Positions 25,223 through 37,088 of a stretch of 53,341 bases of DNA are shown in pieces. Numbering within the stretch: the first letter of the stretch is position 1; each line of letters opens with the position of its first letter. The stretch comes from Ferrimicrobium sp. (GTDB taxonomy: Bacteria; Actinomycetota; Acidimicrobiia; Acidimicrobiales; Acidimicrobiaceae). The stretch covers positions 1 through 53,341 of the forward strand of contig JALCZJ010000016.1 of the NCBI GenBank assembly GCA_022690815.1, in the 5' to 3' direction. The translations under genes and the position numbers were made by a program. The notes under the pieces are model-generated. The model did not search any database. It was not told where the DNA came from and saw only the letters and a list, made by a program, of their open reading frames with translations.

Positions 25223-26122
25223 TCAAGAATCGAGCGGCGGCTCCTCTAGGCGATCGGCATCAAAGACGCGGCTGACAGCGATATCCTCCGGCTCAATCGT
25301 CATCAGATCGAGTTTGGTTATCGACGAGCCACGCCGTTCAAAGAGGCGATTCGCCTGACGTAGGCGCGCCCGGTCCAAGGCGTTACGGACACTTCTAGCG
25401 TTCGCGAAGTTCGGCTGGATCATGCGCAGCTCGAGATAGCGACGAAATACCTGCTCCGCCTCGTCCGAGAACCGATAGTGTTGTGCCGCAAGCATGAGCT
25501 TGGCGATGGCGAGGAGCTCATCTTGTGAATAGTCCGGGAAATCCACGTGGTGGGCGATCCTCGAGGACATACCAGGGTTAGACCGAAAGAAGGTGTCCAT
25601 CCGATCCTTATAGCCGGCCAAGATCACTACCAGATCTTCACGCTGATTCTCCATGACCTGGAGCAGGATCTCAATCGATTCTGCACCATAGTCACGCTCG
25701 TTCTCCGGCTTAAAGAGGTAATATGCCTCATCAATGAAGAGCACCCCACCCATCGCCCGCTTAAGAACCTCTTTAGTCTTCGGTGCGGTATGCCCGATAT
25801 ATTGACCCACAAGGTCATCCCTGGTCACCGCCACCACATGGCCTTGTCGGACATAACCCAGCCGCGCCAAAAGTTCGGCCATTCGAAGCGCGACAGTCGT
25901 CTTACCAGTGCCGGGGTTACCAGTGAAGCTCATATGGAGACTCGGGTGACCACCTACTAGGTCGAGCGCTGCCCGGGCCCGATCTACAAGCAGCAACGCC
26001 GCGATCTCGCGGATGCGAGTCTTGACTGGTCGCAACCCGACGAGCTCTTGGTCGAGCTCATCAAGCGTCTCCTGCATTTTGGCCGCGACAAAGAGTCCCT
26101 GAAGATCCACCTCTTCACTCAC
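25223..26122 (-). CDS. cbbX: RuBisCO activase CbbX (red type)
   Basis: AAA+ ATPase of 299 residues that removes inhibitory sugar phosphates from red-type RuBisCO by pulling on the CbbL C-terminus. Walker A is [11 protein letters not shown] (about 67-76), Walker [13 protein letters not shown] (about 125-136), followed by the sensor/arginine-finger region [17 protein letters not shown]. Length and motifs match proteobacterial and red-algal CbbX. It is the third gene of cbbLSX and starts 54 bases after cbbS. RuBP-dependent activation is known for the family. Confidence 0.95.
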
Positions 26123-26176: not shown

Positions 26177-26593
26177 TCAATAGCGCTCCCCCGGTGGCTG
26201 TGTGGCCGCGTAGCTAGACGTAGAGTACACAATGTGGCGCCCCTCTAGCTCTTGACGCTCGGTCGCAAAGCCAGGCTCGTCATCGGGCCGGTTCACCAGA
26301 AACGACATCCGGGGTGCCTCCCAGCCTCGGGTGGAGTCAAACGCCGTGACTCGAATGTAGCGTTTTGGGTACGCACGTCGACATTCGTTGATTTCATAGA
26401 GGATCGCCGCATGGTCGTGGAGGTCGAACATCGGCAGACCCCACATATCCCAATACGTGTTCCGAGGGTGTGGGTCGTCGGTGAACTCCACGCCGATCGC
26501 CCAATCATGGGCAAGTGCCCAGCGGATCTGGGCCACAATCTGCTCGTCAGTCAATGGAGGTAGAAATGAAAACTGGCCTTGGGTAAGGTGCAT
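26177..26593 (-). CDS. cbbS: RuBisCO small subunit (form I, red type)
   Basis: Small subunit of 138 residues. The N-terminal TQGQFSFLPPLTDEQIVAQI and the core NTYWDMWGLPMFDL and CRRAYPKRYIRVTAFDSTRG are characteristic of form IC/ID. The C-terminal extension after about residue 115 is the beta-hairpin that fills the central channel in red-type enzymes, which need no RbcX-like chaperone. An AAAGGAC sequence precedes the ATG. It lies 48 bases downstream of cbbL. Confidence 0.95.
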   Translation of the reverse strand: MHLTQGQFSFLPPLTDEQIVAQIRWALAHDWAIGVEFTDDPHPRNTYWDMWGLPMFDLHDHAAILYEINECRRAYPKRYIRVTAFDSTRGWEAPRMSFLVNRPDDEPGFATERQELEGRHIVYSTSSYAATQPPGERY

Positions 26594-26619: not shown

Positions 26620-28093
<1,474 letters not shown>

Positions 28094-28186
28094 TCACTCC
28101 TTTTGCCCTGCCTGTGGGCACAAGGTAACGATAGCCAGCTTGTTCTTTCAATACATCATTTAATACCTATGAATTTACCTCTGATT

Positions 28187-28204
28187 GTTAACTATAATAT
28201 TAAC
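28187..28204 (+). promoter_or_regulatory. cbbR -10 element inside a LysR-type palindrome
   Basis: GTTAA-N8-TTAAC forms an inverted repeat at 28187-28204. Its centre contains a perfect TATAAT (28193-28198), and the cbbR ATG (28206) begins seven bases after it. This is the geometry of a leaderless transcript, with the operator over the promoter. LysR regulators bind T-N11-A-type palindromes between their own gene and the divergent target, here cbbLSX. Confidence 0.65.
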
Positions 28205-28205
28205 T

Positions 28206-29111
28206 ATGACCACAACTCAACTCAAAACCCTGCTAGCAGTAGCCGAGACTGGCTCCATCGTCGCGGCAAGTCGACGACTCTTCGTGACGTCGGCGGCTGT
28301 CTCATCGGCGATGGCTGCCCTGGCTCGCGAGGTCGGCGTCGATCTCACGCAGCGAGCTGGACGAGGTCTTGTCCTTACCCCTCCTGGAGAGGTGCTGGCT
28401 GGGTATGCCTCGACCCTGTTGGGGTCCATGGACGAAGCACTGCTTCGAGCCAGGGAGGCGTGCAACTCCGACGCCTTCGTCCTTCGCATCGGTGCGGTCG
28501 CGACCGTCGGCGAAGAACTCCTTCCTCGTTGGCTCCAGGGTTATCTTGCACTTCGTCCAACCGCCACGGTGAGTCTTGAGGTCGCGAACAAGACGACACT
28601 CGTCGAACTTCTTGACCAGCATCGCGTCGACCTAGTAATCTCTGGGCGACCTAGGAACAACGACCCTGTGAGGGTAATCGCCACCAGAGGGCACGAACTC
28701 GCCCTGATCGCCAACGAGCGACAGGCCTACCAATGGTTCGGCCCCGCTCAGACACCCACCCCAGAACAGGTGGGAGCTTTGACTTGGCTGGTGCGAGAGC
28801 CTGGATCTGGAACCCGAGCTTCTGCAGAGGAGCTCATCGGTGAACTCCAGATTACGCCACCTACGTTGACGGTTGGCTCTAATCTAGCCATCAAGCGCCT
28901 TGTGGAACTTGGGCTCGGCATCGCGGTCATCTCTACTGAGTCGGTAGCCCAAGAGCTCGGGGCTGGCGAGCTGATCTCCTTGCGGGTACCACCGCTACCC
29001 CAAGAAAGAACCTGGTGCCTTGGTGTCCGAAGCGAAGAGTCACCCACCAGTGCGATCCTCGATTTCGTCAACCATCTAGATGCCTCGGGTGAGGTCAAGT
29101 TCACCCCCTAG
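28206..29111 (+). CDS. cbbR: LysR-family regulator of the Calvin cluster
   Basis: CbbR-type activator of 301 residues. The N-terminal winged HTH is TTQLKTLLAVAETGSIVAASRRLFVTSAAVSSAMAALAREVG (residues 2-45), followed by the periplasmic-binding-protein-like LysR substrate domain (about 90-295). The frame can be opened at a TTG at 28185, but ATG 28206 matches the family start and follows a -10 box directly, without a Shine-Dalgarno. It is divergent from cbbL by 115 bases, the classic arrangement. CbbR proteins sense Calvin-cycle metabolites or NADPH; the ligand here is unknown. Confidence 0.9.
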   Translation: MTTTQLKTLLAVAETGSIVAASRRLFVTSAAVSSAMAALAREVGVDLTQRAGRGLVLTPPGEVLAGYASTLLGSMDEALLRAREACNSDAFVLRIGAVATVGEELLPRWLQGYLALRPTATVSLEVANKTTLVELLDQHRVDLVISGRPRNNDPVRVIATRGHELALIANERQAYQWFGPAQTPTPEQVGALTWLVREPGSGTRASAEELIGELQITPPTLTVGSNLAIKRLVELGLGIAVISTESVAQELGAGELISLRVPPLPQERTWCLGVRSEESPTSAILDFVNHLDASGEVKFTP

Positions 29112-29183: not shown

Positions 29184-30203
29184 ATGGCCAACCAATCGAC
29201 GAGCTACGTAGAGATGGTCAACACCGCTTATATGATGGTCGCCTACCCGAAGGGGATCCTTGCGGCCGATGAGAGCAGCCCAACACTGACGAAGCGTTTC
29301 GAGGCTCTCGGACTCAGTTCGACTGAGGACTCACGACGCGACTGGCGAGAAACGCTCTTCGATACCCCAGGACTAGCCGAGTTCGTCTCCGGTGTCATCC
29401 TTTACGATGAAACCTTTAATCAAGCTACGTCGACAGAAGAACCCTTTTGCGACTTTCTCAACCGCCGGGGCATGTTATGCGGCATCAAAGTCGACACGGG
29501 TGCAAAGCCGCTTGCTGGTTATGACGGCGAGCTCGTCACCGAGGGGCTTGACAACTTGGGGGCACGCCTGGAGCGCTACCACCAGGGCGGTGCCCGATTT
29601 GCCAAATGGCGCGCCGTCTTTGGCATCAAAGACGCCAAGCCAAGTGCTGCCTGCATCGCCAGTAATGCGCATGCTCTCGCACGGTACGCCAAGCTCTGTC
29701 AGACATTCGGCCTGGTTCCGATCGTTGAGCCAGAGATCCTCATGGAAGGGCAACATGATCTGGCGGTCGCTAAGAAGGTTGCCACAACTGTACTCGTAGC
29801 CGTCTTCGACCAGCTGCGTCTCTTTGAGGTTGCTATGGAGGCCATCGTACTCAAGCCATCGATGGTAACCCCAGGCGTAGCTGGGCCATCAGCTCGACCA
29901 GATGCCATAGCACAGGCCACCATCGATTGTTATCTCGATGCTGTGCCAGCCTCGGTCGCTGGGATCGCCCTGCTCTCAGGGGGCCAGTCAGATCACGATG
30001 CGACCGAGAACCTGGCTGCGATCAATGCGAAAGGATCGCTACCGTGGCCGATTACCTTTTCGTTTGGTCGCGCACTCCAAGATGCCCCGCTGCGGGTGTG
30101 GGCAAGCTCCAAACAGGATCGCCAGCTGACCCAGGCGAGTCTGATGACAAGGGTCCGGGCAGCGGCAAACACCCGCAAACCCCAAGAGCTGATCTCAGTC
30201 TGA
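29184..30203 (+). CDS. Class I fructose-bisphosphate aldolase
   Basis: Schiff-base aldolase of 339 residues, closer to the animal/plant type than to the DhnA type. It reads AYPKGILAADESSPTLTKRF near the N-terminus, RRGMLCGIKVDTG and FAKWRAVF in the middle, and Lys224 in AIVLKPSMVTPG is the Schiff-base residue; IALLSGGQSDHDATENL is the phosphate loop. In the Calvin cycle it condenses triose phosphates to FBP and, with erythrose-4-phosphate, SBP, which are substrates of the phosphatase domain encoded downstream. AGGAGG lies just before the ATG. It is the first of the plus-strand metabolic genes after cbbR (72-base gap). Confidence 0.95.
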   Translation: MANQSTSYVEMVNTAYMMVAYPKGILAADESSPTLTKRFEALGLSSTEDSRRDWRETLFDTPGLAEFVSGVILYDETFNQATSTEEPFCDFLNRRGMLCGIKVDTGAKPLAGYDGELVTEGLDNLGARLERYHQGGARFAKWRAVFGIKDAKPSAACIASNAHALARYAKLCQTFGLVPIVEPEILMEGQHDLAVAKKVATTVLVAVFDQLRLFEVAMEAIVLKPSMVTPGVAGPSARPDAIAQATIDCYLDAVPASVAGIALLSGGQSDHDATENLAAINAKGSLPWPITFSFGRALQDAPLRVWASSKQDRQLTQASLMTRVRAAANTRKPQELISV

Positions 30204-30646: not shown

Positions 30647-31300
30647 ATGCACCCGATTCAACTGCTCCTCGTCGATGACCACGAGGTCATCATTGATGGT
30701 GTTCGTGCCATGCTTCGCAACTACGCCGACGAGGTGGTGGTCCTAGCGGCCGTGAAGACGACTGGGGAGGCAATGGATTACCTCGGCAACCAGTCACCTG
30801 ATCTGATTCTCACCGACGCCCGGCTCAAAGGTGGCTCAGGTTTCGAGCTTTTAGAGCAGGTCGTATCGGCAGGCATTGAGGCTCCCGTCGTCTTTTACAC
30901 CGCCTATGACGACGAGGCCTATCTGTTCCGGGCACTTCGTGGCGGCGCCCGTGGCTACATCCTCAAACAGGCCACTGGCGCCGAACTCGTCGGGCTCCTC
31001 ACCCGTGTCATGGCGGGTGAGATCACGATTGATCCATCTATTGCCGGCCGGGTCGCCCTGCTCGCGGCGAGGCTACAGTTTGGCGAGTTTTGGCCCGGCG
31101 CACATCTGGGTCTCACGCAACGCGAGAGCGAAATTCTTGAGCTCATCGTCAAAGGAATGTCAACAAAGATGATTGCACAGAGCCTTTTTCTGGGTGAAGA
31201 GACGGTAAAAAGTCATCTATCTTCGATCTATCGGAAGCTCAAGGTAAAGTCACGCGCTGAGGCGGTCGCAGTCGCCTTGAAAGATGTAACCTTTCGATGA
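30647..31300 (+). CDS. NarL/FixJ-type response regulator
   Basis: Response regulator of 217 residues. The receiver domain (1-120) has acidic residues Asp10/Asp11, the phospho-acceptor Asp57 in DLILTDARL, a conserved Thr in FYTAYDD and the Lys in GYILKQAT. The LuxR-type HTH (about 148-210) reads LTQRESEILELIVKGMSTKMIAQSLFLGEETVKSHLSSIYRKL. AGGAGGGGG lies upstream. The stop overlaps the kinase start by four bases. Its position inside the Calvin cluster suggests it adjusts expression of the carbon-fixation genes; that is inference. Confidence 0.93.
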   Translation: MHPIQLLLVDDHEVIIDGVRAMLRNYADEVVVLAAVKTTGEAMDYLGNQSPDLILTDARLKGGSGFELLEQVVSAGIEAPVVFYTAYDDEAYLFRALRGGARGYILKQATGAELVGLLTRVMAGEITIDPSIAGRVALLAARLQFGEFWPGAHLGLTQRESEILELIVKGMSTKMIAQSLFLGEETVKSHLSSIYRKLKVKSRAEAVAVALKDVTFR

Positions 31301-32499
31301 TTCTCGAACCCGACGAACTCACCCTCTATCGCAAGCTCGCGCTCGTGCTCGCGCAGAACCTCACGCTCGACCAGCTCGCTACCCAATCGGCTCAGCTCGT
31401 GGTTGAGGCAGTTGGTGCCAGTGTTTGCTTCGTGCACCTCGTCAACCAGGAGTTGACTCGCATCGAGTTGGTTGGTGCTACCCCGCCCTTTGACACCTAT
31501 CGTCGTCGCGTATCGCTCGGCCTTGGCGACGGCATCGCCGGCTGGGTCGCCCAGACCGGACAGGTTGCCGTTGTTCCTGACAAGTGGAGTGATCACCGTT
31601 ATCGCTATCTTCCCGAGCTGCAAGGAGAGCGCTTTCGCGCGCTGATCTCCGTGCCGATGCTCAACGTCAACGCAACGGTGGTCGGCGTCCTCAACGTCCA
31701 CTGGCAACGCGACGATGTCGATCTCGATCACCATCTAGAGGTACTCACCAGCGTGGCCAGCTTCCTCGCTGGCGCCTTCGATCACGCGCTCCTCGTGGAA
31801 CAGCTGGCAGCACACGAACGCACCTTAGAAGGGTTCACCCAACAGCTGATCGACGCCCAAGAGGCTGAACGACGCCGCATCCAGCTTGACCTCCACGATG
31901 GCGTCCTTCAGCAGGTTCACGCTGCTTACTATCGTCTTGAGGCGATCAAGGCCGCTCGCGGGCTCGACGAGAATGAAGTCAGAGATGTCCGAATTGCCTC
32001 AGAACTGCTTCGATCCAGTGCCGAAGCGATTCGTCACATTACTGGAGACTCAGCTCGGCAAGTCCTCGACGAACTTGGCTTTCCAGAGGCCGTTCACACC
32101 TTGGCAACCTCATATCCGGACTTCTCCGTCGTCGTCACGGATCGAACCGATCAGCTCGAAGGGACCCTTGAACCCACACGAGCGCTTGCAACCCTGCGCA
32201 TTCTTCAGGAGGCCCTCAACAACGCCTGGAAACACTCCGGTGTCCATCAATGCGAACTCCGCCTCACGACGATCGGTGGAGACCTCGTGATTGTTGTCCG
32301 CGATCGTGGCAATGGTTTCGATCTTGAACAGACGACGTTGGCGACCAGCCTCGGAGTCCGAGGCATGCGTGAGCGTACTCGTATGATCGGCGGTCACCTC
32401 GAACTCTACTCAACTATGGGAGAGGGCACGCTGGTGCGTCTGCGTCTGCCGCTTGTCGCCCATGCAGTCGAAGGCACTGGTTTGCCCAGGCGTCGATGA
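31297..32499 (+). CDS. Soluble GAF-domain sensor histidine kinase (HisKA_3)
   Basis: Cytoplasmic kinase of 400 residues with no transmembrane segment. A GAF domain spans about 15-165. The dimerisation/phospho-acceptor helix EAERRRIQLDLHDGVLQQVHAA has His200 as phosphorylation site. The ATPase domain follows, with LRILQEALNNAWKHSG (N box), VRDRGNGFDL (G1) and GVRGMRERTRMIGGHLEL (G2). Partners the response regulator. A GAF input with no haem or Fe-S cysteine cluster evident suggests small-molecule or redox sensing, signal unknown. Confidence 0.93.
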   Translation: MILEPDELTLYRKLALVLAQNLTLDQLATQSAQLVVEAVGASVCFVHLVNQELTRIELVGATPPFDTYRRRVSLGLGDGIAGWVAQTGQVAVVPDKWSDHRYRYLPELQGERFRALISVPMLNVNATVVGVLNVHWQRDDVDLDHHLEVLTSVASFLAGAFDHALLVEQLAAHERTLEGFTQQLIDAQEAERRRIQLDLHDGVLQQVHAAYYRLEAIKAARGLDENEVRDVRIASELLRSSAEAIRHITGDSARQVLDELGFPEAVHTLATSYPDFSVVVTDRTDQLEGTLEPTRALATLRILQEALNNAWKHSGVHQCELRLTTIGGDLVIVVRDRGNGFDLEQTTLATSLGVRGMRERTRMIGGHLELYSTMGEGTLVRLRLPLVAHAVEGTGLPRRR

Positions 32500-33210
32500 A
32501 TAGTTGACGCCAAACGGGCACACAGACGCCACGTCGCTCGCGGAGTTTCGGCACATGGCATCGCCACTGGCCTCACCCCAACCATCACCCATCTTGGGGA
32601 GGAGAGAGCCGACACGTATCCGCTAGGTTGGGATGACATTGATGAGCCAAGGGGTGATGGCAAAGATGAACGCACAGCAGCCGCTCGATTACACACATGA
32701 AGAGCGCGCTCCTCATCAGGGTGACGATTTACCAGTCATCGGAGATAATGCCACGACTCAAGCGCCATGCCGGCACGCACAGGCCTCGTCCACACGACCC
32801 CCATCCCAGCACCGAGACACGCAACATCAAGGCGCTGGGCATCAAGCAGATCACAACATGGCTGAACTCCAGTGGCCGCCGACACACGGGGTTCAGGTGG
32901 CCCCATCAAGGTACACGTATCGTCACACGGGATACCCGGGCACAGTGACCACCACTCTTGAGATCTTGGGTCGTGTAGCGTTAGCTCGACGCAAGTCATA
33001 TCCAGGGGTGCTCGCTCAGGCTCTCGCTCACCCGTGCAACGTTACTTCTCCGAAGCTTCCTACATCTGCGACAGCTCCAGGCCAGCGTCACATGCCGCCC
33101 ACGGCCACCATCGCGCAGGCCTCATCACCAACCACCATCACGAGGCGGGAACGATGCTCAACCTGGTGCCAGCACGCAGAGGAGCATCCCCACGTACAAG
33201 GAGTTCGCAC
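32500..33210. other. Long leader upstream of the fusion gene
   Basis: About 710 bases before the transketolase start. Frames are open, including one of 193 codons at 32633 and the upstream extension of the transketolase frame, but their residues look non-coding. A promoter for the fusion gene and prkB-like genes is expected here; no clear -35/-10 or riboswitch was recognised. Confidence 0.4.
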
Positions 33211-36072
33211 ATGAAGGCACTCGACCAGCGCGCCATCACTACCGTCCGCATGCTCGCCATCGATCAGGTCGAGGCGGCCCAATCTGGACACCCGGGGATA
33301 GCGCTTGGCCTCGCACCCATTGCCTACACCCTCTTTTCACGCATCATGAACTTTGATCCCCTGGACCCCACCTGGCCTAACCGTGATAGGTTCGTCCTCT
33401 CCCCTGGTCATGGGTCCGCGCTCCTCTATGCCCTCTTGCACCTGTTTGGCTATGATCTTCCCATCGACGAGCTGAGGCGCTTTCGCCAGCTCGGATCCAA
33501 GACCCCCGGGCACCCGGAGTATGGTGTAACACCCGGGGTCGAGACTACCACCGGCCCGCTCGGTCAGGGACTGGCAACCGCCGTCGGGATGGCGATCGCC
33601 GAGGCGAAGCAACGCGCAATGAGCGATGGCGTCATCGACCACCACACCTTCGTCTTGGTCTCTGACGGTGATCTCATGGAGGGAATCAGTCACGAGGCCG
33701 CCTCCCTCGCTGGTCACCTGCGCCTCGGTCGCCTCATCGTTGGCTATGACTCCAATGACATCACCATCGATGGTCCACGGCACCAGTCGTGCACCGATGA
33801 TGTGGTCATGCGGTTTGTGTCCTATGGCTGGCAGGTACTCACGATTGCAGACACTGAGGATGTCGAGGAGATCGAACGGGTCTACCGCGAGGCCATGGCC
33901 GACGAACGTCCCACCCTGATCGTGGCCCCAACCATCATCGGACGTGGCGCACCCACCAAAGAGAACACCGCAAAGGCCCACGGGGCACCCCTTGGTGCCA
34001 GCGAGCTTGGCGCCACCAAGGCTGGCTATGGTTGGCCTGATGAGCCGACGTTCCTCGTCCCTGACGAGGTGAGGACCTACGTTGACCAACAGATCGCGGC
34101 CAAACGGGTAATCCATGAGAGCTGGGAAGAGGCCAATCCAACTGGGGGTGTCACAGCTAGCACAACCGTTGATGCCAGTGACATCACCGTGACAACCGAG
34201 CCCGTGGCGACTCGAGTGGCATCTGCGACCTATCTGGCTCGTGTCGCCGCTCATGACCCAACGCTCATCGGGGGTTCGGCTGACCTCGCCGAGTCGACTG
34301 GGCTCAACGTCGGTCTTGTGGCGATCACTGCTCGGGACTTCTCCGGGTCAGTGATCCACTTTGGCATCCGCGAACACGCGATGGCTGCTATTGCCAACGG
34401 GCTTGCGCTCTCGGGCTATTGCCCATACGTCTCGACGTTTCTGGTCTTTTCCGACTATCTGCGTCCAGCACTTCGTCTCAGTGCCCTCATGGGCCTCGGG
34501 GTCATCTACCTCTTCTCCCATGACTCCTTCGCCGTTGGCGAGGACGGGCCAACCCATCAGCCCATCGAACAGCTCGAAGCACTGAGGATCATCCCAAATA
34601 CTCAGGTGTTGCGCCCAGCCGATGCCTTTGAGACCTACGCCTGTTGGGAGCTTGCACGAAGCGAACGCTCCCGACCCACCATCTTGGTCCTGACGCGCCA
34701 ACCACTCCCTCAGCTTCCAAGCTCCGAGTCGCCCACTTGGCTCGTAGACACCGGTGCGAGGGTGGTCCACGATACTGAGAACAACCCAGAAGTCGTCCTG
34801 GTGGCTTCGGGATCGGAGGTAGCGCTCGCAATCGCGGCTGCCAAGATTTTGAAAGACGAGGATGACATCGACGCCCGGGTCATCTCCGTGCCCCATCGTG
34901 AGCGCTTCTTGGGTATCGATCCAAGAGAGCGCGATCTTCTCGCCCCGACTGGGATCCCTCGCCTCGTCGTTGAGGCCTCGGTCGGTACCGGCTGGCATGA
35001 GTTCCTAAGTCCCGGCGACCGACTCTATGGCATCAACCGGTTCGGCGCCTCCGCCCCGATTGACGACGTGGCCGCCTATCTTGGCTTTACCCCTGACAAG
35101 ATCGCCGAGGCAGCTCTTGATCTCGTCGTCGAGGCCTATCGGCTTGGCCAGCCCTCGCATCTGGTAGCTGACCTACTCAGAGCCACGGAGGCGGCGGCCT
35201 GTGCAACCCTTGACGAGGTGGGGCTTGGCGACAAGAACCGAGCTGATCAAGCGGCGGTGTCAGCGATGCGCGAAGAGCTTGGGCGCCTCCCGGTCTTGGC
35301 CACCGTTATCGTCGGTGAGGGTGAGAAGGATCATGCACCCATGCTCTTTGTTGGCGAGCGACTCGGTACCGGTACGATCGACATCGATCTTGCCATCGAC
35401 CCGCTCGAGGGGACCAACTTTGCCGCCTCCGGCAGGGAGGGGGCAATTTCGGTGATCGCCGCTGCCCCATCGGGGGGACTACGAGCTCTACCGGGATACT
35501 ACCTTGAGAAGCTCATCGTCGGGGAACGAGCCGCTGGGGTCATCGACCTCGATCGCCCACTCCTGGAAAACGTCAAGCGGGTCGCGAGTCGCCTCGGACT
35601 CGGCGTCGGGGAGACCACCGTTGTGGTTCTTGCAAAGCCTCGACACGCAACTCAAATCGCAGATCTTCGCGCTCATGGGGTACCGGTACTTGAGATCTCC
35701 GATGGCGACGTCATGGCCAGCCTGAGGGTCTTGAGCGGAGATCCCAATACCGCGATGCTCTGGGGGATCGGTGGAACACCTGAAGGCGTGATCTCAGCGG
35801 CAGCGACACTCGCACTCTCGGGTCAGATGCAGGCCAGGTGCGCTCCCCAAAGTGAGCAAGAGGCTACGACCGTGGCAGGCGTCTACCCTGACTACGCGAC
35901 CCGGTGCTTCGAAGCTAGTGAGTTAGCACATCCGAGCTCGATCGTGGTCGCGACCTCGGTGAGTGGCGCCTACCCGTTGGCACCACCTCGAAGCGTCGGT
36001 GAGTTTACTTACCTCGAGAGCCTGTGGATTGGGGAGGGGCGATATGGGATCATTCGGCGCCTTGTTCCATAG
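33211..36072 (+). CDS. Transketolase - class II fructose-1,6-bisphosphatase (GlpX) fusion
   Basis: One 953-residue frame joins two Calvin enzymes. Residues 1-640 are a complete transketolase: thiamine-diphosphate domain (SGHPGIALGLAP, HGSALLYALLHL, LVSDGDLMEGISHEA, YDSNDITIDG), pyrimidine domain with catalytic Glu388 in GIREHAMAAIANG and HDSFAVGEDGPTHQP, and C-terminal domain to about 635. Residues 651-953 are a GlpX-type FBPase: GLGDKNRADQAAVSAMR (Asp674), IVGEGEKDHAPMLFVGE, and AIDPLEGT (Asp730, Glu733, Thr735, matching E. coli GlpX Asp85/Glu88/Thr90). The frame is open from 33034, but AAGGAG lies 8 bases before ATG 33211, so that start is used. No stop or shift at the junction. The phosphatase makes F6P (and perhaps S7P), which is the substrate of the transketolase half. 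GlpX is slightly short (303 versus about 336). Confidence 0.93.
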   Translation: MKALDQRAITTVRMLAIDQVEAAQSGHPGIALGLAPIAYTLFSRIMNFDPLDPTWPNRDRFVLSPGHGSALLYALLHLFGYDLPIDELRRFRQLGSKTPGHPEYGVTPGVETTTGPLGQGLATAVGMAIAEAKQRAMSDGVIDHHTFVLVSDGDLMEGISHEAASLAGHLRLGRLIVGYDSNDITIDGPRHQSCTDDVVMRFVSYGWQVLTIADTEDVEEIERVYREAMADERPTLIVAPTIIGRGAPTKENTAKAHGAPLGASELGATKAGYGWPDEPTFLVPDEVRTYVDQQIAAKRVIHESWEEANPTGGVTASTTVDASDITVTTEPVATRVASATYLARVAAHDPTLIGGSADLAESTGLNVGLVAITARDFSGSVIHFGIREHAMAAIANGLALSGYCPYVSTFLVFSDYLRPALRLSALMGLGVIYLFSHDSFAVGEDGPTHQPIEQLEALRIIPNTQVLRPADAFETYACWELARSERSRPTILVLTRQPLPQLPSSESPTWLVDTGARVVHDTENNPEVVLVASGSEVALAIAAAKILKDEDDIDARVISVPHRERFLGIDPRERDLLAPTGIPRLVVEASVGTGWHEFLSPGDRLYGINRFGASAPIDDVAAYLGFTPDKIAEAALDLVVEAYRLGQPSHLVADLLRATEAAACATLDEVGLGDKNRADQAAVSAMREELGRLPVLATVIVGEGEKDHAPMLFVGERLGTGTIDIDLAIDPLEGTNFAASGREGAISVIAAAPSGGLRALPGYYLEKLIVGERAAGVIDLDRPLLENVKRVASRLGLGVGETTVVVLAKPRHATQIADLRAHGVPVLEISDGDVMASLRVLSGDPNTAMLWGIGGTPEGVISAAATLALSGQMQARCAPQSEQEATTVAGVYPDYATRCFEASELAHPSSIVVATSVSGAYPLAPPRSVGEFTYLESLWIGEGRYGIIRRLVP

Positions 36073-36161
36073 CGCATCCGCGACCCACACGGCAACCGAG
36101 AAGACCGCGCTGCCCAGCGGCACCAAAGATCATTAGCAGCCCACGTCATCAAGGAGACCTC

Positions 36162-37088
36162 ATGCCCCATCGAATAGCAGCGATCCAAAAACTACTCGCC
36201 ACCGAGCCTCATCCGCCGAGGGTCGCCATGTTGGCAATCGGTGGGGACTCGGCTTCTGGCAAAACGACCCTCACCAAAGGATTGGTGCAGGCGCTCGGCA
36301 AGGACCGTATCACCTCATTTTGCACGGACGACTATCATCGCTACGACCGCCAGGAACGCAAGGCCCTCCCCTTCACCCCACTCAATCCCGAATGTAACTA
36401 TCTGAAAATCATGGAGCAACACCTCCAGCTCCTAACACTCGGACAACCAATCCTCAAGCCCAAATACCACCACGCTGATGGGACTCTCGGGCGGCCCGAG
36501 CTGTTTACACCAAGCGAGATTGTGATTGCGGAGGGACTATTCCCTCTATGGTCAAAACTCTCACGAGCCGCCTTTGACGTCACGGCCTACCTTGACCCAC
36601 CCGAGCCAATCCGTCGCGAGTGGAAGATCGCCAGGGACACCAGCAAACGAGGCTATACCAAGGAGCAGGTCCTTGCGGACCTCGAAAAACGTGAATCCGA
36701 GTCCGAAAAATATATCCGTCCACAGCGTGCCCATGCAGACCTAGTCATCTCGTTTGCTCCAGTCGAGGGCCGCGATCGTTTGAGCGCGACGATCTTGCTG
36801 CGGCCGACGGCGCCGCACCCCGATCTTCACGACATCCTCACTCCCTCCACTCGAGAGGCCGCTCACATCAAGCTCATTCGAGACCAAGATGGCAAGCCAG
36901 TTGATGCGCTGCACGTCCATGGGCACGCACCGGAGTCGGTCACTCGCATCGTCGAGGAGAAGCTGTGGGAGCACATCGGCCTCCCAGGCGAGATCCCCGA
37001 GAGTCTTGGGCGTATCAGCACGAGCGAGCGATCCGCCCCACTGGCGGTAGCTCAGCTCATCCTCTTGCACCATATGATCCAGGTATAG
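36162..37088 (+). CDS. prk: Phosphoribulokinase
   Basis: Kinase of 308 residues that makes RuBP from ribulose-5-phosphate. P-loop AIGGDSASGKTT (residues 25-36), FCTDDYHRYDRQERK with the catalytic Asp, PKYHHADGTLG, and IVIAEGLFPLWSK are typical. It resembles the longer cyanobacterial/plant class more than the proteobacterial one (inferred from the IRREWKIARDTSKRGYTKEQVL segment). The frame is open from 36024, overlapping the fusion gene, but ATG 36162 follows AAGGAG by five bases. It lies 89 bases downstream of the fusion gene and is the last Calvin gene. Confidence 0.94.
   Translation: MPHRIAAIQKLLATEPHPPRVAMLAIGGDSASGKTTLTKGLVQALGKDRITSFCTDDYHRYDRQERKALPFTPLNPECNYLKIMEQHLQLLTLGQPILKPKYHHADGTLGRPELFTPSEIVIAEGLFPLWSKLSRAAFDVTAYLDPPEPIRREWKIARDTSKRGYTKEQVLADLEKRESESEKYIRPQRAHADLVISFAPVEGRDRLSATILLRPTAPHPDLHDILTPSTREAAHIKLIRDQDGKPVDALHVHGHAPESVTRIVEEKLWEHIGLPGEIPESLGRISTSERSAPLAVAQLILLHHMIQV

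Follow-up and report, generated by a model that had tools for sequence, protein, structure and literature searches.

A transketolase joined in frame to a GlpX-type fructose-1,6-bisphosphatase in a Calvin-cycle gene cluster of Ferrimicrobium and its family

Proteins that join two enzymes from a single pathway are known, fusions of transaldolase with phosphoglucose isomerase among them. The phosphatase step from fructose-1,6-bisphosphate (FBP) to fructose-6-phosphate (F6P) is irreversible, and transketolase (TK), which is a dimer, takes two carbons from F6P; sedoheptulose-7-phosphate (S7P), the product from sedoheptulose-1,7-bisphosphate (SBP), is a TK substrate as well. Bacterial TK (TIGR00232; PDB 2e6k, which we take to be the Thermus thermophilus enzyme) stands alone, with no phosphatase domain. 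The cyanobacterial FBP/SBPase (PDB 3roj, 5a5l), a Calvin-cycle phosphatase of the GlpX family with dual activity on FBP and SBP, is likewise unfused. GlpX-type class II fructose-1,6-bisphosphatase (FBPase; PDB 1ni9, 3d1r, 7js3, 6ayy) is known as a stand-alone homotetramer, and the available part of one report describes class II FBPases as 222 homotetramers (PMC5892879). Here we analyse the window, the whole 53,341-nucleotide stretch of Ferrimicrobium sp. DNA (contig JALCZJ010000016.1 of assembly GCA_022690815.1), in which one gene joins a TK in frame to a GlpX-type FBPase.

The fused gene and its parts are as follows.
33198..33203, plus strand: Shine-Dalgarno-like AAGGAG, 7 nt 5' of the fusion ATG (sequence reading)
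33211..36072, plus strand: fused gene, transketolase and class II fructose-1,6-bisphosphatase, 953 aa plus stop in a single frame (Pfam)
33211..35124, plus strand: TK half, residues 1-638, boundary approximate (Pfam, TIGR00232, Glu388 in GIREHAM)
35125..35157, plus strand: junction, residues 639-649, a link of about 10 residues (sequence, codon comparison, structure model)
35158..36069, plus strand: GlpX-type FBPase half, residues 650-953 (Pfam, catalytic-residue alignment)

An earlier note on this DNA had read the gene as a single 953-codon frame holding both enzymes complete, and the domain search bears this out. In the window sequence the frame runs from the ATG at 33211 to the stop at 36070-36072, encoding 953 aa with zero internal stops, and its Pfam domains, every one complete and above its cut-off, are Transketolase_N at residues 5-307, Transket_pyr at 331-500, the TK C-terminal domain at 515-627 and FBPase_glpX at 650-950. 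The TK half exceeds the TIGR00232 equivalog cut-off (707.6 against 682.25 bits, residues 7-636), and the best solved relative of residues 1-640 is 2e6k, with which the whole half aligns end to end (E 8e-186). Glu388, presumably the catalytic Glu, lies within a GIREHAM motif and its column is invariant across a 32-row alignment, as are those of H27, H67, H101, D152, H257, H437, H449 and R496, which we take to be catalytic and cofactor motif positions.

The phosphatase half matches FBPase_glpX (PF03320) nearly end to end, at 299.4 bits against a gathering cut-off of 27 (profile 2-302 of 307). The best solved relatives of residues 641-953 are the E. coli GlpX structures 1ni9 and 3d1r (E ~1e-58), while the match to the cyanobacterial FBP/SBPase is weaker (2e-49). 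The part of PMC5892879 available to us places Asp33, Glu57, Asp85, Glu88, Thr90, Tyr119, Lys164, Arg166, Asp188 and Glu213 in the active site of E. coli GlpX, and all ten are identical in the fusion: D679 (D33), E703 (E57), D730 (D85), E733 (E88), T735 (T90), Y764 (Y119), K809 (K164), R811 (R166), D833 (D188) and E858 (E213). The Thr corresponding to T735 is the proposed attacking nucleophile in the accessible text of another study (PMC10289334). At each of the ten sites, all fused rows with sequence there (20-22 of 22 rows per site, the remainder gaps) have the identical residue, and so do all three rows from genomes where the two genes are split. Of the active-site residues named beforehand, Glu388, Asp730, Glu733 and Thr735 thus hold; Asp674 does not, as it belongs to a GDK motif and the equivalent of the metal ligand Asp33 is Asp679. 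The fused half and the canonical GlpX proteins of the same genomes fall on separate branches. Class I FBPase (PF00316) was found in none of the 42 family genomes, other FBPase classes not having been searched.

Codons 621-669 of the fused gene contain no in-frame ATG, GTG or TTG from which the phosphatase could be started separately. Just ahead of them, GTG620 lies within the TK C-terminus, and no clear Shine-Dalgarno sequence was seen before it. The fixed 1:1 ratio of the two halves, also anticipated in the earlier note, follows from the one frame. In three congener pairs, the ratio of nonsynonymous to synonymous rates (dN/dS) was 0.075-0.134 for the TK half and 0.033-0.096 for the FBPase half, and the 20 junction codons 633-652 had a dN of 0 at dS values of 0.21, 0.82 and 1.31, which places both halves and the junction under purifying selection. 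In comparisons against the window protein, junction dN was 0.098-0.124, within the 0.091-0.207 range of the halves, and we read this as constraint on the junction as protein, roughly as strong as that on the folded halves. The AlphaFold model of the fusion has a mean predicted local distance difference test score (pLDDT) of 78.6; the TK half is confident, and the FBPase half, covered in the model alignment by only two other rows, one of them partly, is mostly near or below 70. Helices are predicted at 628-646 and 650-669 with a three-residue break at 647-649, so the link between TK and phosphatase appears short in the model.

The same two-domain architecture, which the earlier note had proposed to look for elsewhere, recurs throughout much of the family. 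A frame across the junction is present in 27 of 42 family genomes and in six of eight genera; these are 22 long matches and the contig-end-cut G018 and G020, among 36 genomes, together with G436, G437 and G438. Three genomes (G028, G030 and G034) carry adjacent but separate TK and phosphatase genes, G016 is cut at a contig end ahead of the junction, and no TK match was found in G435. No frame across the junction was found in nine genomes of genus g6 and one of genus g2, of which G439 and G440 were judged by TK frame lengths alone and G035 lacks a full TK match. The window genome is a 2.54-Mb draft in 60 contigs. In the complete, single-contig genome of Acidimicrobium ferrooxidans (G012), a member of an acidophilic, iron-oxidising genus, no full-length TK match besides the fusion was found, the remaining TK_N match being weak and inside a 926-aa frame. 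In G021 (L146:13-15), a TAG at query residue 888 lies at a contig end and marks either a shortened phosphatase or an assembly-edge error.

Beyond the family, we searched a phylum sample of 396 genomes, two of them from the family, with at most two candidates scored per genome and a weakest listed match of E 2e-144. Among the matches listed, both halves were matched only in the window genome and G012, and listed matches elsewhere that extend past residue 660 run through a stop codon. A contig scan gave at least 594 stretches, of which 80 loci were kept; among these, both halves were present only in L033 and L034, with L035 cut at a contig end; we took these three as the same records as contigs of G014, G027 and G020, respectively. 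Searches with the phosphatase alone covered a class sample of 395 genomes (FBPase model, hence with no bearing on fusions) and, in other phyla, the genomes behind ten contig-scan loci (phosphatase half). No relative of the phosphatase half was found in viral contigs. Plasmids gave 51 records with such a relative, 15 of them listed, and in the one whose context was read, that of Allomeiothermus silvanus, tkt and glpX are separate.

The fusion lies among Calvin-cycle genes in the window, as the earlier note had it, with the following neighbours.
25223..26122, minus strand: CbbX-type (RuBisCO activase) AAA protein (Pfam for AAA; we assume the CbbX name from its position)
26177..26593, minus strand: RuBisCO small subunit, RbcS (neighbour annotation)
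26642..28090, minus strand: RuBisCO large subunit, RbcL (RuBisCO search)
28185..29111, plus strand: LysR-type regulator, CbbR-like by position (neighbour annotation)
29184..30203, plus strand: class I fructose-bisphosphate aldolase (neighbour annotation)
30647..31300, plus strand: LuxR-type response regulator (neighbour annotation)
31297..32499, plus strand: GAF-domain histidine kinase, upstream of the fusion (neighbour annotation)
36162..37088, plus strand: phosphoribulokinase (PRK), directly 3' of the fusion (start at MPHRIA inferred; open reading frame 36024-37088)

Of the 20 fused loci whose sequence extends far enough, 18 have PRK directly 3' of the fusion, a count that leaves out the fusions of G436-G438. 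A RuBisCO match was obtained in 23 of 27 fused genomes, in all three split genomes and in none of the ten genomes of genera g6 and g2. Three drafts of genus g8, G019 (L017), G023 (L020) and G026 (L022), have the fusion and no RuBisCO match, one of these drafts being 96% complete; PRK adjoins the fusion in L017 and L020. Relatives of the response regulator and histidine kinase (30647-32499) adjoin Calvin genes in the phylum relatives G704, G589 and G628, and the two are possibly a Calvin-cycle regulator pair. In A. ferrooxidans the RuBisCO (L139:5687-7480) lies ~40 kb from the fusion-PRK block, and its RbcL is 61% identical to that of the window, compared with 74-82% for L033, L034, L135 and L140; RuBisCO may have been exchanged there while the TK-FBPase-PRK block stayed. 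The Acidimicrobium RuBisCO is given as form IA in the available part of PMC12999727. A genome note on Ferrimicrobium reports RuBisCO and eleven Calvin enzymes, with CO2 fixation not detected.

To place the fused and separate forms, we compared them with an unfused relative and built trees for each half. In the phylum relative G704 (L134), TK, GlpX and PRK are adjacent but separate genes; gene order, regulator pair and a nearby aldolase are common to this locus and the fused one, whereas in G704 tkt and glpX lie in different frames. The tree inputs excluded duplicates and context loci (L002, L033-L035, L138-L140, L142), distant TKs (L043-L112) and further duplicates (L113-L115), as well as TKs below 450 aa and FBPases below 150 aa. 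The second copy in G002, G016, G018, the second piece in G020 and G435-G440 were also not in the trees, and the window genome alone supplied a second TK of the family. Row L027, which is cut, is labelled as such in the TK tree and was counted as fused in the topology test. In the TK tree (41 rows), all family proteins but the second TK fall into one clade (99/97). There, the TK-only genus g6 branches next to the fused rows as a whole, and the three split genomes nest among fused proteins of genus g4 (100/99). The FBPase tree (47 rows, midpoint root) places the split rows as sister to the five fused g4 rows (100/100 for the eight), and this group lies inside that of all fused rows (94/90). The exact position of the split rows differs between the two trees. 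A clade of fused rows that excludes the split rows is rejected by both halves (p-AU 2.4e-8 for TK and 2.5e-4 for FBPase), which leaves either one fusion with one fission or several fusions. We prefer one fusion and one later fission as the simplest history, the one that would need the fewest changes.

A single TAG separates the TK and phosphatase frames in G028, and a TGA and a TAA separate them in G030, in both cases within the same reading frame; in G034 the phosphatase is in a different frame from the TK. Among these three genomes the distances are 0.32-0.36 for the phosphatases and 0.08-0.10 for the TKs, a ratio of 3.5-3.9, compared with a ratio of 0.39-1.29 (median 1.11) in 229 fused pairs, pairs with a TK distance of 0.03 or less being left out. 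Because dS is saturated in most split-genome comparisons, we used the proportions of nonsynonymous (pN) and synonymous (pS) differences instead. At synonymous sites both genes are strongly and similarly diverged (pS 0.73-0.81 for TK and 0.75-0.77 for FBPase); therefore, the mutation rate is not the explanation of the phosphatase divergence. Separate genes thus appear to go with relaxed constraint on the phosphatase, in a single clade where the cause may lie elsewhere.

Given the observed frame, domains, residues, selection, distribution and gene order, we consider it probable that the fusion is a genuine bifunctional phosphatase-transketolase serving chiefly the Calvin cycle. From these features we infer both activities, a single uncleaved protein, its history and its benefit; judged by their residues, both halves look active. 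One frame would give one polypeptide, whose C-terminal class II FBPase half would remove phosphate from FBP, and perhaps from SBP too. The TK half would then convert F6P (perhaps S7P) and glyceraldehyde-3-phosphate to xylulose-5-phosphate (Xu5P), which would be turned into ribulose-5-phosphate, the substrate of the PRK encoded next to the fusion. Since class II FBPase is a 222 tetramer and TK a dimer, a closed complex would consist of two TK dimers on one FBPase tetramer. Most likely, the starting point was an operon with tkt, glpX and prk side by side, in which the stop codon of tkt was lost and the tkt and glpX frames came into register; this fusion would have happened a single time, inside the family, with a single later fission. 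The benefit of the fusion would most likely be a fixed dosage, together with closeness of an irreversible step to the reversible step that follows it. Channelling between the halves and SBPase activity of the phosphatase half are speculative. A more elaborate scheme, which we regard as tentative and on balance doubtful, is a tethered enzyme for the regeneration of ribulose-1,5-bisphosphate (RuBP), in which a dual F/SBPase and TK would catalyse as many as four steps (FBP to F6P to Xu5P and erythrose-4-phosphate; SBP to S7P to Xu5P and ribose-5-phosphate), a fixed assembly of TK dimers on the FBPase tetramer handing ketose phosphates from the phosphatase to TK.

Several observations weigh against a bifunctional enzyme devoted to the Calvin cycle. 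The FBPase half scores slightly below the TIGR00330 glpX cut-off (251.7 against 259.3 bits, with the best stretch at profile 5-239 of 334), which suggests a divergent GlpX whose substrate preference could differ from FBP, and the structure model is poor across this half. Elsewhere in the window genome lie another GlpX, of the canonical kind (C7), and another TK (C5), the latter next to a transaldolase, and three genomes carry the two genes separately. No RuBisCO match was found in four of the fused genomes, G006, G019, G023 and G026, three of them in genus g8. Two congener fusions, L151:2346-5249 (G006) and L150:4408-7311 (the second copy of G002), have neither PRK nor the regulator pair next to them. 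Their identity is 92% to one another and 76-83% to copies of the genus that lie in the cluster, and they have neighbouring frames in common; the G006 copy is the only fused gene found in that genome, an 83% complete draft. The fused enzyme is thus also kept away from the Calvin cluster and may serve outside the Calvin cycle. Because a split lineage lies inside the fused clade and fused copies lie off the cluster, the fusion can be dispensed with and is not bound to the Calvin cluster.

These observations leave room for other explanations of the long frame. The strongest is that both activities work and that the fusion is a neutral product of stop loss, the joining bringing no advantage in kinetics or regulation. 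The two genes were probably neighbours in the ancestor, so that a single stop loss would suffice, and separate genes are tolerated in three genomes; however, the fusion has been retained in six genera, and the phosphatase-to-TK ratio that sets the split clade apart from the fused pairs also speaks against neutrality, with the reservation on its cause made above. We regard a neutral fusion as a real possibility, if not one we favour. It is unlikely that the frame is real and the protein is nevertheless cleaved, or the phosphatase also made separately, to give two ordinary enzymes. A linked FBPase tetramer, of 222 symmetry in the text available from PMC5892879, and a TK dimer must meet two symmetries, and the short link at 639-649 could be cut, but the junction is conserved to much the same degree as the folded halves. 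For separate synthesis, GTG620 inside the TK C-terminus offers a start codon, although it has no clear Shine-Dalgarno sequence ahead of it and codons 621-669 have no in-frame start.

That the phosphatase half is no longer an enzyme and acts as an oligomerisation or regulatory domain of TK would agree with the divergence of the C-terminal part and its failure to reach the TIGR00330 cut-off. We find this very improbable, as all ten catalytic and metal-binding residues are kept and the FBPase dN/dS is below the TK dN/dS in three congener pairs. The draft state of the window genome, in 60 contigs, could raise the suspicion that a sequencing or assembly error joined two genes. This was ruled out, to a degree that leaves it scarcely any probability, by the junction-crossing frame in 27 of 42 family genomes, including one assembled as a single contig. 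The bifunctional phosphatase-transketolase is our preferred reading.

We found no description of a TK-FBPase fusion in the titles and abstract openings listed by searches on this fusion, on the Calvin genes of these bacteria, on the A. ferrooxidans genome or on GlpX structures, searches to which subscription journals and domain-architecture databases did not belong; the fusion may be recorded in those. The main text of the A. ferrooxidans genome paper has no word starting transketolase, bisphosphatase, fusion or Calvin, and the portions available of papers on Thermaceae and Hydrogenisulfobacillus give TK and class II FBPase different gene numbers. The known fusion closest in kind, that of transaldolase and phosphoglucose isomerase, occurs in the same family (G015: TAL_FSA 17-354 and PGI 445-655) and likewise has two sugar-phosphate enzymes on one chain, but the enzymes are different and no Calvin-cycle phosphatase is among them. 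One such fusion, L144:2184-5039, directly follows a second transketolase, and long transaldolase frames are also present in several further family genomes.

An engineer who wished to accelerate RuBP regeneration might join a Calvin-cycle phosphatase to a transketolase. In this family, evolution kept such a fusion in six genera, placed a copy of it away from the Calvin cluster and, apparently, reversed the joining once. Together with the ancestral-like form (G704), the fused and split forms would offer a natural comparison for the effects of joining on flux, dosage and evolution.

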